Shown: piece after piece, positions 2,749 through 13,611 of the stretch
Position numbering within the stretch: position 1 is the stretch's first letter
How the letters are laid out: the number at the start of each line of letters is the position of its first letter
Assembly: GCF_027622945.1 (NCBI RefSeq)
Contig: NZ_JAPZVQ010000005.1
Span: forward strand, 134,040 to 198,039
Length of the DNA stretch: 64,000 nucleotides
Direction of reading: 5' to 3'
DNA from: Glycomyces lechevalierae
Lineage (GTDB): Bacteria > Actinomycetota > Actinomycetes > Mycobacteriales > Micromonosporaceae
The notes under the pieces: model-generated
Told to the model about the DNA's origin: nothing
Seen by the model: only the letters and a program-made list of their open reading frames with translations
The model's database searches: none
Made by a program: the position numbers and the translations under genes

Positions 2749-3570
2749 CTAGTCGCCCTGGAAGTAGGAGAGCAGACGCAGCAGGTTCCAGTACAGGAAG
2801 ATGAGGCCCGCGGTGAGGCCGAAGGCCCCGGCCCACGCGTACTTCTTCGGGGCGCCGTGCTGGGCGGAGTACTCGATCATGTCGAAGTCGAGGATGAACG
2901 AGAACGCGGCCCACAGGGTGATGCCGATCGCGATGATCCACTGCAGGGCCGAGACCGACTCGCCGGGGCCGGCGAACAGGCCGAGGTCCACGCCGAACGC
3001 GCTGAAGAGGAGGTTGGCCATGCTGAGGAGGAAGATGCCGATGCCCGCGCCGACGATGACCTTGGTGAACATCGGCGAGTTCTTGAGGATGCGGAACTTG
3101 TAGAGCGCCAGCATCGCGCCGAACACGAGGATGGTGGCGAGGAGGGCGTTCACGACGATCCCGGGCCACTGCTGCTCGAAGACCGCGGAGACGCCGCCGA
3201 GCAGGAGGCCCTGCCCGATCGCGTAGAGGAACGCCACGAACGGGTTCGTGACCGGCTTGAACATCGAGAAGATCATGATGCCGAGGCCGACGACGGCGCC
3301 GATCGTGCCGAGCATCATCGCGGTGCCGATCGCGTCGGCGTCGCTGTTGGCGATGCCGTCCGCGACCATGCCGTACGTGAGCAGCGCGGCGATGAAGGTC
3401 GCCGCGACGAGCGCGACAGTACGGACGATGACGTCGTCGATCCGCATGGTCTCGGCCTGCGGAGCCTGGGTCATCTGCCCGTAAGGCCCGTACGCGGCAC
3501 CCATGTGCTGCTCGTTGTACTGGGTCTTCACCATATTTCGAAGGGATGAGTTCCTGCTCTGCATTGCCAT
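2749..3570 (-). CDS. Bax inhibitor-1/YccA-family membrane protein
   Basis: A 273-residue polytopic membrane protein of the Bax inhibitor-1 like family, whose bacterial members are proposed pH-sensitive calcium leak channels or regulators of membrane proteases. A 45-residue hydrophilic N-terminus rich in Gln, Tyr and Gly precedes about seven hydrophobic helices, from IVRTVALVAATFIAALLTYG to LTAGLIFLYWNLLRLLSYF. The penultimate segment carries ILDFDMIEY, matching the family's acidic pair in the last helices. Two in-frame ATGs lie six bases apart (3570 and 3564); either could be used. A small hypothetical gene follows directly. The long N-terminal extension is common in actinobacterial members, as far as I recall. 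Confidence 0.9.
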   Translation of the reverse strand: MAMQSRNSSLRNMVKTQYNEQHMGAAYGPYGQMTQAPQAETMRIDDVIVRTVALVAATFIAALLTYGMVADGIANSDADAIGTAMMLGTIGAVVGLGIMIFSMFKPVTNPFVAFLYAIGQGLLLGGVSAVFEQQWPGIVVNALLATILVFGAMLALYKFRILKNSPMFTKVIVGAGIGIFLLSMANLLFSAFGVDLGLFAGPGESVSALQWIIAIGITLWAAFSFILDFDMIEYSAQHGAPKKYAWAGAFGLTAGLIFLYWNLLRLLSYFQGD

Positions 3571-3639
3571 GACCTGCGGTCCTCCGTTGGAATCTCAAGG
3601 GTGAATCTCAGCCTATCCGGTCATAGGCGCAAACACGAC

Positions 3640-3673
3640 ACAGCGCCGGAGCATTCCCCTGCTCCGGCGCTGT
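3640..3673 (-). terminator. Hairpin terminator of the 5'-nucleotidase gene
   Basis: A perfect 14-bp stem (ACAGCGCCGGAGCA with its complement) closes on a 6-nt loop, 17 nt past the stop at 3690. There is no strong T tract, as is usual in high-GC actinobacteria. It separates the nucleotidase from the Bax-inhibitor-like gene on the same strand. Confidence 0.8.
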
Positions 3674-3689
3674 GAATCCGCTCAGGTAG

Positions 3690-5417
3690 CTAGGAGATCA
3701 CTGTGACCCGGCCCAGTTCCGGCGCCTGGAGCGGCGTCGCCTGGGTGCCGAACTCGGCGATGTAGTCCTCGAACGCGTCCACGTCGAGTTCGCCGAAGAG
3801 GCGGTTCGTGCCGCCGTTGAACGCGGTGAACGAGTCGCCGCCCTCGGCGAGGAACGAGTTCGTCGTGACCCGGTAGGTCTGGTCGGCGACGATCGGCTCG
3901 CCGTTGAGCATGAGCGAGTCGGCCACGATCTGGTCGGTGCCGGTCCTCGTCTTGTCCCATGTGTACGTGAAGCCCTCGGAGACCTGCAGGAACAGCGTCG
4001 TCGAGCGCACGCCCGGGATCGGGAGCTGCTGCTTGAGCGCCTCGAGGAGCTGCGCGCCGGTCAGGTCGAGGGTGACGACGTAGTTGTTGAACGGCTGCAC
4101 GTCGAAGACCTCGCGGTAGCTCACCACCCCGGGATCGCCCTCGGTGTAAATGAGGTCGTCGCGGACGCCGCCGGGGTTCATGATCGCGATCTCGGCGCCG
4201 CCGGTGTCCGCCGAGGCGGTGTTCCACAGCTGCGCGTCGGCGATGAGGCTGCCGAGCGGGAACTCCTCGGCGCGGGTCGCGCCGCGCTTGATGTCCTCGG
4301 CGATGTAGCCGACCTCGCGGCCGCCCGCCTCTTCAGCGGCCGGAGCGTACTCGGCGATGATGTCGGACTGGTCCTCGTCGGCGTCCACGTCGCGGGTGAC
4401 GACGGTGTTGGAGCCGGTGACCGAGGAGCGCACGATGTCCTTGGTGCGCTTGTCATAGGTCGCGTCGATCTCGGTGAACACGCGGCCGTAGGACGACGCG
4501 GAGGTGACCATGCGCGGGTTCCCGGCCGGGTCCGGCACCGAGCACACGTACTCCTGGTGCGTGTGGCCGGTGACGAGGATGTCCACGAGCGGGGTCATCG
4601 TCTCGGCGATGTCCACGATGGGGCCGGACATGCCGACGCCGGAGCCGTCCAGGGACTCGCAGTCGTGGCCGGTGTCCTCGGCGACGGGCACGCCGCCCTC
4701 GTGGAGGAGCACGACGATCGAGTTGACGCCCTTGCGCTTCAGCTCCTGCGCGTACTTGTTCGCGGTCTCGACCTCGTCGAGGAAGTCCAGGCCCTCGATG
4801 CCGGACTTGGAGACGATGTCGCCGGTGCCCTCGAGGGTCATGCCGATGAAGCCGACCTTGACGCCCCTGCCGAAGTCCTTGATCCAGTACGGGTCGAGCA
4901 CGGGCTTCCCGGTGGCCTCGTCGACGACGTTCGCGCCGAGGTACGGGAAGTCCGCGCCCTCGAAGTCGTCGTCACCCTCGATGATGCGGTCGAGTTCGTC
5001 GATGCCGGCGTCGAACTCGTGGTTGCCGACCGAGGAGACCTCGACGCCCATCTCGTTGAGCGCCTCGATGGTCGGCTCGTCGTCGAAGATCGCGGACATG
5101 AACGGGCTCGCGCCGATGAGGTCGCCGGCGGCCACGGTAGTCGAGTAGCGCTGGCCCTCGCGGGCCTGCTCGAGGTGGGTGGCGAGGTACTCGGCGCCGC
5201 CCGCGGGGACGTTCACGCCGTCGACCGGGTACGTGTCGCCGGCGGTGGCCTCGATGTGGCCGTGGAAGTCGTTGAGCGCCAGCAGTTGGAGGTCGACCTC
5301 GCGGTGGCGGTCCTCTTGACCGGCGTTCGCCGACCACGCGCCGACGGCGAGCGTGGTCGCGGCGAGCGCGGCGGCGGCGCCGGCCGCCGCGATCCGCTTG
5401 CGTCTGATGGTGAACAT
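3690..5417 (-). CDS. Secreted bifunctional metallophosphatase/5'-nucleotidase (UshA/NadN family)
   Basis: A 575-residue exported enzyme that removes phosphate from extracellular nucleotides, releasing nucleosides for uptake. The N-terminus RRKRIAAAGAAAALAATTLA is a signal peptide. The metallophosphoesterase domain follows, with NDFHGH near residues 49-54, AAGDLIGASPF, the GNHEFD motif and GHTHQEY. The C-terminal substrate-binding domain contains NPGGVRDDL and the stacking region FNNYVVTLDLTG. Start choice: a longer frame opens at 5480, but the ATG at 5417 has CGGAGAG just upstream and begins the signal peptide directly, so I use it. No LPXTG anchor or lipobox is present, so release from the cell is likely. 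It stands alone between a terminator and a long upstream region. Confidence 0.92.
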   Translation of the reverse strand: MFTIRRKRIAAAGAAAALAATTLAVGAWSANAGQEDRHREVDLQLLALNDFHGHIEATAGDTYPVDGVNVPAGGAEYLATHLEQAREGQRYSTTVAAGDLIGASPFMSAIFDDEPTIEALNEMGVEVSSVGNHEFDAGIDELDRIIEGDDDFEGADFPYLGANVVDEATGKPVLDPYWIKDFGRGVKVGFIGMTLEGTGDIVSKSGIEGLDFLDEVETANKYAQELKRKGVNSIVVLLHEGGVPVAEDTGHDCESLDGSGVGMSGPIVDIAETMTPLVDILVTGHTHQEYVCSVPDPAGNPRMVTSASSYGRVFTEIDATYDKRTKDIVRSSVTGSNTVVTRDVDADEDQSDIIAEYAPAAEEAGGREVGYIAEDIKRGATRAEEFPLGSLIADAQLWNTASADTGGAEIAIMNPGGVRDDLIYTEGDPGVVSYREVFDVQPFNNYVVTLDLTGAQLLEALKQQLPIPGVRSTTLFLQVSEGFTYTWDKTRTGTDQIVADSLMLNGEPIVADQTYRVTTNSFLAEGGDSFTAFNGGTNRLFGELDVDAFEDYIAEFGTQATPLQAPELGRVTVIS

Positions 5418-10851: not shown

Positions 10852-11226
10852 CGCCATCCTCACGACACTGGCCTATCGGCTTCCGCGATACCGGGAAGTG
10901 ACAAAGTCGTTGCAGCAGAAGGGAAAGCCATGTCCCCACCGGCTGTTTCGACAGAATGGTATCAGCGTTCAGTTCCCTGGATAGCATGGTGGCCCTGCGC
11001 AGTCAACCTGCCGATGCATAAGGACTGGCGCATGAAAACCCCTCTGCGGGGGTCCGAATAGGCTGGTCAGGAGGCGACCGGGCGGCGATCGTGAGCACTC
11101 GCCTACGGGCGGTGAATCTTCACTCGTTCGGGAGGTGTTGACCGGAATGCGAGGAACACCACTTGCGGACCGGACGGCCCCCCTCCGTCCGACCTCGTTG
11201 CGCCGCAACTTCGTTCACCACCCGCG
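10852..11226. other. Intergenic region between the conservon and tRNA-Leu
   Basis: 375 nt without a credible gene. It must hold the conservon promoter. A 7-bp stem CGGACGG/CCGTCCG (11171-11191), about 35 nt past the tRNA-Leu 3' end, may terminate the tRNA transcript. A small CCCC-TCTG-GGGG hairpin lies near 11040. Confidence 0.5.
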
Positions 11227-11309
11227 TGCCCGAGACGGGATTTGAACCCGCAAGTCTCACGACGGCCGGTTTTAAGCCGACTGTGTCTACCAGATTCCAC
11301 CACTCGGGC
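11227..11309 (-). tRNA. tRNA-Leu (anticodon UAA), bldA-type
   Basis: The minus strand folds as an 83-nt class II tRNA. Acceptor stem GCCCGAG pairs with CTCGGGC, discriminator A, and T-arm GCGGGTTCAAATCCCGT. The anticodon stem is GTCGG/CCGGC with loop CTTAAAA, giving anticodon TAA, and there is a short variable arm. CCA is not encoded. This tRNA reads UUA, the rarest leucine codon in high-GC actinobacteria; its Streptomyces counterpart is bldA, which limits expression of TTA-containing developmental genes. The gene immediately on the other side, the DUF222/HNH gene, contains a TTA codon. Confidence 0.95.
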
Positions 11310-11436: not shown

Positions 11437-11530
11437 CTTCAAGCGGCAGCGACGAAGGATGCCGCTTCTCCTGTCCCACTTCGGGTTCGGGTCGTCAGTA
11501 CACAAGGTTCAGGCGGCGGCGACAAAGAGG
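11437..11530 (+). repeat. Two copies of the HNH-flanking repeat (upstream array)
   Basis: The cores TTCAAGCGGCAGCGACGAAGG (from 11438) and TTCAGGCGGCGGCGACAAAGA (from 11508) are 70 nt apart. The same core appears on the opposite strand four times downstream of the HNH gene, so the gene is flanked by inverted arrays. Copies are degenerate, roughly 80 percent alike by eye. Confidence 0.7.
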
Positions 11531-11714
11531 CAGGTGGAGGGTCCTTGTCCCCCTTGGGCTTTAGGGTGTGCGGTGGTGCGGCGTGAATCTTTCTCACCTC
11601 TACTATGGACCTATATTCACTCTTTCAGGTGATGCCAATCCTTCGAACACCTGTCATCATTGACCTATAACGGCCACACCGATAATCGGATAACTCCCAA
11701 GGGGGGTGAGCAGG

Positions 11715-13334
11715 ATGAATGGCACAGACAACAACTCTCGAGCGGCCGCCCTGCGCCCCCAGATCGATTCCCTCACCACTCAGCTCTGCGCAGTCGAGGC
11801 AAATCTCCTGCAAGCAGTCATCGCTTACACTTCCCAAGGCCTTCACAAAGAGTGCGACGGCTTCTCCGGCATTCGCGACTGGATCAAAGAGTCCTTCAGT
11901 CTCAACGAGGCCTGCGCCGGGCAGATCGCCTCCATTGCCCGCCTCTCCCCGAAGTTCAAGCACCTCACCGAAGCCGCCCTCTCGGGCGCCGCCCGCATCG
12001 ACGCCATCGCCTACGCCATGCGCCGCATCGAGCGTGAAGGCCTGGCCGTCTATTCCCGGGTCCCCTACCCCACCCCGGTCGAGTCCCCCTATGGCGCCAC
12101 CTGCCGGACTCCCGAAGAGCTGATCCGCGAGTACTGCGTCCACGCCACCCGCTCCGAACTCGCCGAGCACCTGGACCGCATCTGCGCCGAGCTCTTCGAC
12201 CAGCAGGCGCTCCTCACCGAACTGAGCCAGCAGTCCCTGGCCTGGCTGGAAGTCAACCAGCGCCCCGATGGCATGTGGGACATCGAAGGCCTGCTCACCG
12301 ACGACACCGGCAAGCTCCTCAGCAACGCCCTGCGGACCGCAGTCCCCCCGCCTCGCCAAGAGGACAAGGACGCCGACGGCCTGCTCCCCCGAGTCTCCGG
12401 CCGCAACGCAGAGGCCCTGCACCAGATGGTCGCCGCCTACGGCACTGCTCCCGACGCCCCGAAGCGGCACGGCCACACCGCGACCCTGAACCTCACCTGC
12501 GATGTCGAGACCCTTCGCGGCGACAAGACCGGGCGGCTCCCGAAGCTCGACGGCAAGACGATCTCGGTCTCCAAGGCCCGCCTCCTCGCCTGCGAGGCCG
12601 GGGTCATCCCCTCGGTCTTCGACTACAGCACTGGCGAAGCGATCGAACTGGGCCGTGCCAAGCGCCTCCCCAACGTGGCCCTGCGCCACAAGCTGGAGCT
12701 CGAGCAGCCCGAAGGCTGCGCCTGGTCCGGCTGCCGGGCCCCGATCTCCTGGACCGAGGCGCACCACATCGAACATTGGGCGAACGGCGGCGAAACGACC
12801 GCTGAGAACCTGATCCTCCTCTGCCGGTTCCACCACGGCAGGATCCACCTGGACACCTGGGAGATCACGAAGACCGCCCCCGGCAAGGCAGTCATCCGCC
12901 ACCTCCGCACCGGCGCAACGGATGCCGAATGGGAGGCGGACCTCCCCAGCGGCCAGTCCGCCGAGGAGTTCTCCCCGAATCTGAAGCGCCAGTTGGACGA
13001 CTACGCGACCTGGTTCGCCCAGAAGAACATGGAAGCGAGCATCGCCAGAACCCGAGAGCGGTTCAGGGAAAAGGATGCCGCAGAAGTCAAGGCCTGCACG
13101 GCAAATGAAGAACCACTGGTCCCCGCCCCTCAGGAAGACCCGGGCGATCCCCCGTTCTTAACCCGCCCTCAGCGGGCGACTGCTGAGGGGAGCGCAGGTC
13201 AAACCAAGCGCAGCCCGTTCCCCAAGAGGGACCGGGCCCCTCACCATGTCCAAGGCCCGGCTCTGGGCGAACCGCCCCCGCTCCGAACACGAAACCCCGC
13301 CCTTCCCACTACCCCTTTGTCGTTGCGGGCTTGA
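11715..13334 (+). CDS. DUF222 / HNH endonuclease (13E12-repeat type)
   Basis: A 539-residue protein: an N-terminal helical DUF222 region (to about residue 300), then an HNH nuclease domain around residues 334-380 with CAWSGC, the catalytic AHHIEHW, GGETTAENLILLC and CRFHHGRIH, i.e. two zinc Cys pairs and the HH...N...H core. The last 110 residues are Pro/Arg-rich and poorly conserved in appearance. DUF222-HNH proteins include the 13E12 repeat proteins of mycobacteria, which behave like selfish or repetitive elements; their role is unknown. ATG at 11715 is preferred over GTG at 11706 because AAGGGGGG then lies at proper distance. Codon 482 (13158-13160) is TTA. Repeat arrays bracket the gene in inverted orientation. 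Confidence 0.9.
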   Translation: MNGTDNNSRAAALRPQIDSLTTQLCAVEANLLQAVIAYTSQGLHKECDGFSGIRDWIKESFSLNEACAGQIASIARLSPKFKHLTEAALSGAARIDAIAYAMRRIEREGLAVYSRVPYPTPVESPYGATCRTPEELIREYCVHATRSELAEHLDRICAELFDQQALLTELSQQSLAWLEVNQRPDGMWDIEGLLTDDTGKLLSNALRTAVPPPRQEDKDADGLLPRVSGRNAEALHQMVAAYGTAPDAPKRHGHTATLNLTCDVETLRGDKTGRLPKLDGKTISVSKARLLACEAGVIPSVFDYSTGEAIELGRAKRLPNVALRHKLELEQPEGCAWSGCRAPISWTEAHHIEHWANGGETTAENLILLCRFHHGRIHLDTWEITKTAPGKAVIRHLRTGATDAEWEADLPSGQSAEEFSPNLKRQLDDYATWFAQKNMEASIARTRERFREKDAAEVKACTANEEPLVPAPQEDPGDPPFLTRPQRATAEGSAGQTKRSPFPKRDRAPHHVQGPALGEPPPLRTRNPALPTTPLSLRA

Positions 13335-13611
13335 AGTTGAGGCCCGATCGGGCCGGATTCCGAAGAGCCGCCCTGCGTCGCTCCCACCTCGTTGTCGCCG
13401 CCAGGTTGAAGCTCGGCCCAACCGAACCCGAACCCCGAAGAACCAGCCGCCCCAACCCCCACCCCTCTGTCGCTGTCTGCCCGAACCAGCACCCACCCCA
13501 ACACAAGCCCCGCAATCCACCCCGCCGCCCTCCCCACCTCCTCGTCGCTGCCCGCCTGAACGGCAACCCAACCAGTCCCGAAAGCCAAAGACGCGGCGCG
13601 AGTCCGGCCCA
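13312..13611 (-). repeat. Four 75-bp tandem degenerate repeats downstream of the HNH gene
   Basis: Cores resembling CCTCGTTGTCGCCGCCAGG followed by TTGAA end at 13331-, 13406-, 13481- and 13556-, an exact period of 75 nt. On the minus strand they encode 25-residue units in register in one frame (GWVAVQAGSDEEV, GWVLVRADSDRGV, GWAELQPGGDNEV, QLQARNDKGVV). The same core occurs inverted upstream of the HNH gene. I annotate it as a non-coding repeat because no ribosome binding site or start is evident. Confidence 0.75.

Follow-up and report, generated by a model that had tools for sequence, protein, structure and literature searches.

In Glycomyces lechevalierae, a gene for an HNH nuclease of the 13E12 type lies beside a tRNA gene and between short repeats in inverted orientation, and the question arose of whether gene and repeats together form a mobile element, with the repeats as its ends or as targets of the nuclease. 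The locus was analysed within a stretch of 64,000 nucleotides (the window), and its repeats were followed through the source genome and through 21 other Glycomyces genomes.

A DUF222-HNH gene between two inverted core arrays

The layout of the locus proved to be as originally predicted. Two copies of a core repeat lie 5' of the gene on the plus strand, 70 nt apart (11438 and 11508), and four lie 3' of the gene on the minus strand with a period of exactly 75 nt (core starts 13327, 13402, 13477 and 13552); the coordinates of all features are collected in Table 1. A core weight matrix was trained on 27 cores of the loci L012-L019, with the window copy excluded, and recovered five of the six window cores with scores of 11.9-40.7 bits; the core at 11438, which has a 1-nt deletion, was missed. 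At threshold 0, the matrix gave 10 matches in the window versus a mean of 1.8 and a maximum of 6 in 50 shuffles, and the five matches elsewhere in the window, off the locus, scored 0.0-4.1 bits. An exact 21-mer, with three mismatches allowed, matched once in the window and in none of 100 shuffles. TRF detected an array in L017 only and none in the window copy. A search of the region for two-copy direct or inverted repeats was discarded; it returned mostly chance pairs and missed the array as such.

Table 1 Features of the DUF222-HNH locus (positions in the window)
Feature	Position	Strand	Remark
tRNA-Leu (taa)	11226..11309	-	conserved left neighbour of the window copy
5' core 1, outermost, TTCAAGCGGCAGCGACGAAGG	11438..11460	+	1-nt deletion versus consensus
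5' core 2, TTCAGGCGGCGGCGACAAAG	11508..11531	+	70 nt from core 1
Leader motif TTCACTCTTTCAGGTGATGC	11616..11635	+	inverted repeat, operator-like; its GGTGATG[AC]C recurs in most other gene copies and RNA elements
Promoter-like box GTCATCATTG	11653..11662	+	10-mer upstream of 8/8 unbroken gene copies
DUF222-HNH gene	11715..13334	+	ATG 11715 favoured over GTG 11706; 3' end enters the array
DUF222 domain match	12138..12695	+	PF02720
HNH domain	12732..12827	+	PF01844; motif AHHIEHW...GG.T..ENLILLCRFHH intact
3' core 1, innermost	13310..13339	-	overlaps the stop codon of the gene
3' core 2	13385..13414	-	
3' core 3	13460..13489	-	most diverged of the 3' cores
3' core 4, outermost	13535..13564	-	TTGCCGTTCAGGCGGGCAGCGACGAGGAGG form, as at outer ends of other copies

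The gene between the arrays was confirmed as a DUF222-HNH gene of the 13E12 type: PF02720 matched with 46 bits (cut-off 24.4) and PF01844 with 28.4 bits, also over its cut-off. The HNH domain is C-terminal, and its residues are invariant across an alignment of 16 rows. Judged by its domains, the window gene is a member of the 13E12/REP13E12 family. In the gene of the window element, Pfam found DUF222 and HNH only and no DDE transposase, a RuvC match was absent, and the NCBIfam model of IscB gave a weak match to the HNH part only (17.4 bits versus a cut-off of 175). The AlphaFold model of the protein was poor (mean pLDDT 58), the best match of the PDB search had an E-value of 0.12, and PADLOC gave only weak matches (E 0.015 and 0.022); weak matches were also seen in two plasmid records and one phage record. 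Upstream of the gene, we infer an operator in the leader motif TTCACTCTTTCAGGTGATGC and a promoter in the box GTCATCATTG.

Gene elements across the genome

The genome (5.6 Mb, 33 contigs) contains nine DUF222 matches. All eight unbroken copies show the core layout, one 5' core being recognised by eye only. In seven of them, the matrix found one or two 5' cores and an opposite-strand 3' tandem array of four to eight cores with a period of about 75 nt; in the eighth (L015), the 3' array was found by the matrix and a diverged 5' core by eye. Among 64 core-to-core gaps shorter than 170 nt at 14 loci, 27 measured 75 nt and 55 measured 74-78 nt. The terminal core comprises about 30 nt (TTGCGGTTCAGGCGGGCAGCGACGAAGAGG).

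Further copies of the repeat were found genome-wide: with up to two mismatches, the core GGCAGCGACAAMGAGG gave 73 + 50 matches versus 2 + 4 for the reversed control, and 52 of the 59 matches with up to one mismatch lay in DUF222 elements (29), in RNA elements (6; see below) or no more than 1.7 kb from contig ends (17), leaving seven elsewhere. Three of these seven form the array of L060, the back half of a split copy. Its front half, L014, is the ninth DUF222 match, and L060 with the 3' array lies ~14 kb away; the gap is an insertion, at whose junction a large serine recombinase is encoded, and the split lies directly 5' of the HNH motif. At this copy (L014 at C2:119 kb, L060 at C2:104.7 kb, and L291), the two junction tails are almost inverted copies of one another, which resembles attachment sites. 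Gene pieces were also found at eight contig ends (front parts at four, back parts at four), and therefore the genome holds at least 13 copies. Over the 22 Glycomyces genomes, the number of DUF222 gene matches ranged from 0 to 13 per genome. In G021, three gene copies on different contigs (L201-L203), which enter contig ends, are 99.1-99.8% identical over about 1270-1320 nt; L201 and L202 differ at three positions, which all fall within the ~50 nt at the start, around the terminal core.

A second class of elements with a conserved RNA block

Some core matches lie far from any DUF222 gene and start repeats with a conserved non-coding block of ~300 nt. These elements are called class B here, and the gene elements class A. 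The block gave 21 matches in the source genome and from 0 to at least 33 in the 21 other Glycomyces genomes (at least 33 in G015); at E-values up to 0.001, 17 of the 22 genomes were positive, some of them weakly. We read 24 class B copies (20 from the source genome, four from relatives) with a core matrix trained on gene copies alone. Class B elements share their ends with the gene elements and lack the nuclease gene: a core upstream of the RNA block was found in 22 of the 24 copies on the expected strand and in none on the wrong strand, and the leader GGTGATG[AC]C, common to both classes, was present in 21 of them and in eight of nine gene copies. The inverted core downstream of the block was found in only 11 of the 24, and in two copies on the wrong strand. 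The promoter-like box and transcript start behind the leader are also similar in the two classes (TTGAAGTACGAACAGG for a gene copy, TTGATGTACGCACAGG for RNA copies).

Rfam searched at E-values up to 1 with eight loci, four of them class B, returned tRNA only; the block had no match, and HEARO gave none either. Therefore, 33 of 38 extracted sequences (L090, L098, L106, L110 and L111 were left out) were aligned. The 26 named pairs form in 87.2% of cells, a figure for stems picked by eye on the trimmed alignment of the same sequences, with the shuffle and slide controls as their sole support. Covariation in these stems was 0.227 versus 0.178 +/- 0.009 in 500 shuffles, none of which was as high, and did not exceed 0.112 when the stems were slid. 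Pair types in the alignment were no more numerous than in shuffles (407 of 500 reached the same number), and scores of this sort are inflated by relatedness. RNAalifold on a longer alignment gave a weak result, with double changes in 6 of 34 pairs, and the folding stability of one RNA block equalled that of shuffles (z -0.1). By its stem covariation, the class B block is taken to be a structured RNA with covarying stems. A covariance model built on it was run with stricter filters on 300 genomes of the family; it matched 14 of the 22 from Glycomyces and none of the remaining 278. A search of gene elements with the model did not recover the RNA in them; one match of 16.6 bits (E 0.18) lay in the flank of L013. 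By eye, a ribosome-binding-site-like stretch and a start codon follow the RNA block in L103, L105, L106, L112 and L059, and a short, poorly conserved ORF behind the class B block heads toward the 3' cores. The RNA elements L206-L211 of G001 contain many overlapping self-similar stretches around the block, which suggests repeat arrays on both of its sides in this genome.

The two classes are linked by their distribution. Gene and block copy numbers correlate over the 22 genomes (Spearman 0.63, p = 0.0017, with the blocks of G015 counted as at least 33), and each of the 14 genomes in which the RNA model matched has DUF222, which is missing from three of the eight without a match (chance 0.036, ignoring phylogeny). 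A counter-example is G020, with no DUF222 match and one weak block match (E 7.4e-4).

Age and history of the tRNA-Leu copy

With the gene and its left flank including the tRNA as anchor, the tRNA-Leu locus was found in all 22 Glycomyces genomes, and a DUF222 gene adjoins the same tRNA-Leu in 14 of them; in the other eight, no DUF222 gene was present in the 0.5-1.5 kb beyond the tRNA. The size difference in close relatives that a recent insertion would leave at this site is thus largely missing, and a recent insertion of the window copy was dropped as an explanation. The neighbouring tRNA gene, also part of the original prediction, is a trait of the window copy and not a general one: among L012-L019, only L019 holds tRNA genes, more than 3 kb from the element. 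With the right flank of the window copy as anchor, no strong match was obtained in the 21 other genomes.

A tree of 23 proteins splits into two clades (both 100/100): eight tRNA-Leu copies, that of the window among them, make up the first, and clade II comprises the remaining 15 proteins, with the dispersed paralogs. The window copy is under purifying selection (dN/dS 0.18-0.30 in six species pairs). The tRNA-Leu copy of G015 has one stop in the matched frame, and that of G. dulcitolivorans (L158) has two. The tRNA-Leu copy of G. amatae (L162) falls into clade II among other G. amatae copies (support 88/92 for this group and 85/75 within it). Its left flank including the tRNA matches the window at 80%, and its right flank was not matched. 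Since L162 sits at the tRNA-Leu site and groups with the dispersed clade, the resident was apparently replaced by a paralog in G. amatae. G020, one of the eight gene-less genomes, has kept what looks like a decayed leader at the tRNA-Leu. In G018, a genome with no DUF222 match, a core, a leader with the GGTGATGA motif and an CATTGAAGTA box lie to the right of the tRNA-Leu (L193). Taken together, the window copy is old and vertically inherited, with no recent insertion, and its clade has hardly moved. It appears no longer to move and, judging from the six dN/dS values, may be retained as a source of functional nuclease.

Evidence for mobility

The prediction of a mobile element stood in part. 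The repeats are linked with DUF222-HNH genes and with the sister elements of these, copy numbers vary, and two gene sites are polymorphic between relatives; for the window copy itself, at whose site 14 of 22 genomes have a DUF222 gene, mobility is not supported. Of the polymorphic sites, one is that of L017: G002, G009 and G010 have its flanks in collinear order but lack the element between them. This site differs by more than the element, as a globin-like gene is also affected. By eye, L017 encodes a truncated-haemoglobin-like ORF at 3234-3790, and G009 and G010 have there an ORF resembling glycerophosphodiester phosphodiesterase. At the second site, a region of ~6.4 kb around L016 is represented by ~95 nt in G002, and its middle part is also absent in G009 and G010; here too, the difference goes beyond the element. 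G010 lacks the RNA element next to clpB, where G015 too has a block. Looked at for empty sites, neither the two gene sites in the three relatives nor the clpB site in G010 gave a base-exact one.

The outermost cores match as inverted ends in 17 elements, and the target-site duplications looked for at the ends of these 17 were not found. Direct repeats of 6-9 nt were not above chance: repeats of at least 7 nt occurred in none of the 17 and repeats of 6 nt in three, versus 2.4 by chance. Direct repeats of 5 nt were seen in 11 of the 17 versus a mean of 7.7 and a maximum of 13 in 300 shufflings. Simple insertion accounts for the mobility data no better than replacement or conversion does.

Models for the core-ended elements

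The shared ends of gene and RNA elements suggest an undescribed family of mobile elements. We consider the odds about even (probability roughly 0.5) that the window locus is an old member of a dispersed family of core-ended Glycomyces elements, comprising a nuclease class and an RNA class, which is copied or converted through the HNH protein. HNH proteins cut DNA, and no conventional transposase was seen. Class A, which carries the DUF222-HNH gene, would be the autonomous nuclease class, and class B, with a structured RNA and no nuclease gene, a non-autonomous partner served in trans by the DUF222-HNH protein. The core period of ~75 nt is about seven helical turns and would permit cooperative binding on one face of the DNA. 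The protein would bind the phased cores and cut at them, repair would copy or convert the elements into core-bearing or new sites, and the arrays would work like multi-site transposon ends. To our knowledge, HNH-driven transposition of such kind has no precedent.

Some of the data can be read differently. In a homing-type family, a possible if doubtful alternative, the HNH protein would cut cores in resident copies and repair would amount to gene conversion between elements, so that conversion, together with slippage of the tandem repeats, maintains the family and true insertions at new sites are few. The G. amatae tRNA-Leu copy, which sits in its dispersed clade, speaks for this, as do the three G021 copies with 99.1-99.8% identity, where the differences between L201 and L202 are confined to the core end, and the lack of target duplications of 6 nt or more; the REP13E12 loci of Mycobacterium tuberculosis are also reported as gene-conversion hotspots (PMC13061034). 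However, conversion itself leaves unexplained how unrelated sites came to hold 9-13 gene copies and 21 RNA copies, and why class B has the same ends without the gene. Purifying selection on the window copy, the conserved promoter and operator-like leader and the old, fixed locus would also suit arrays with a regulatory or RNA-processing role in a host gene family (as 3'-UTR hairpins or sites for host factors) and with no part in movement, the copies having spread through ordinary duplication and recombination. We regard this as improbable, as the cores bracket class B too, inverted on both sides, and copy numbers vary widely between congeners.

Two unrelated cargoes with common inverted terminal cores would be expected if both classes were MITE-like passengers moved by an unrelated transposase, with nuclease gene and RNA as cargo and the cores as the ends that this transposase recognises. 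This is quite improbable; besides the two classes, no further type of element with such ends was noticed, the element interiors and four isolated core matches lying outside the transposase search. In a variant of the preferred reading, the copying of core-ended elements through the HNH protein, DUF222-HNH would be an RNA-assisted nuclease that takes its RNA in trans from class B, and both classes would make up a two-part mobile system. The RNA could help the protein to choose or spare cores, with the phased arrays as an assembly platform for protein and RNA. We see this as a long shot; if true, the transposition or homing machinery would be unrelated to DDE and HUH enzymes, serine and tyrosine recombinases and IscB.

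Comparison with known systems

Like IS200/IS605 IscB with its HEARO/omega RNA, the Glycomyces family combines an HNH nuclease and a structured RNA. Unlike IscB, the Glycomyces gene has no RuvC match, its IscB match is below the cut-off and HEARO gave no match; furthermore, the RNA belongs to an element of its own, and the gene elements that were searched did not contain it. In REP/RAYT systems, a nuclease gene lies between short inverted repeats, which are found without the gene as well, and the same holds for the Glycomyces nuclease gene. The differences are an HNH instead of an HUH-tyrosine nuclease, arrays phased at ~75 nt, and a gene-less form with a promoter motif and conserved RNA. Tn7- and Mu-type ends are asymmetric, with few sites of one motif on one side and many on the other. 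The ends of the Glycomyces gene elements are likewise asymmetric with multiple sites of the same motif, but neither a DDE transposase or AAA partner nor a target duplication of at least 6 nt was seen. With DDE-type insertion sequences, the elements share the terminal inverted repeats (17 elements) and neither the target-site duplication nor the DDE transposase.

The prophage phiRv1 is inserted in REP13E12, and the Glycomyces copy split by the ~14-kb insertion with a serine recombinase recalls this case. REP13E12/13E12 of mycobacteria and the Glycomyces copies also have in common a DUF222 + HNH protein and multiple, dispersed copies. REP13E12 is described as a repetitive element (PMC10589994) without defined function and as a gene-conversion hotspot (PMC13061034), phage targeting is mentioned (PMC2323391, PMC13061034), and the element appears as a phage target beside deletions (PMC2323391). 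Inverted core arrays or an RNA sister family do not occur in the surveyed portions of these papers (PMC13061034, PMC2323391, PMC10589994), nor do the titles of further papers found on the family point to them. A comparison of paralogs among 20 DUF222 copies from three genomes of one other genus (G073, G028 and G204) revealed no comparable inverted core; the best shared inverted 10-mer was present upstream in 2 of 10 regions and downstream in 5 of 10, and the Glycomyces core was found by the same comparison. A k-mer test for inverted cores at 30 loci of the order (two too short) was insensitive, since even the Glycomyces positives showed hardly any rise.

If the core arrays are targets or ends, the purpose of the DUF222 family becomes testable on 30-bp DNA, and the gene-less RNA sister would tie an RNA to a nuclease family that has none in the portions of the literature surveyed. 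In the same portions, DUF222 genes are assigned no function, yet they are very common in the order: DUF222/13E12 genes were found in 163 of 200 genomes drawn from it, many of them in multiple copies.
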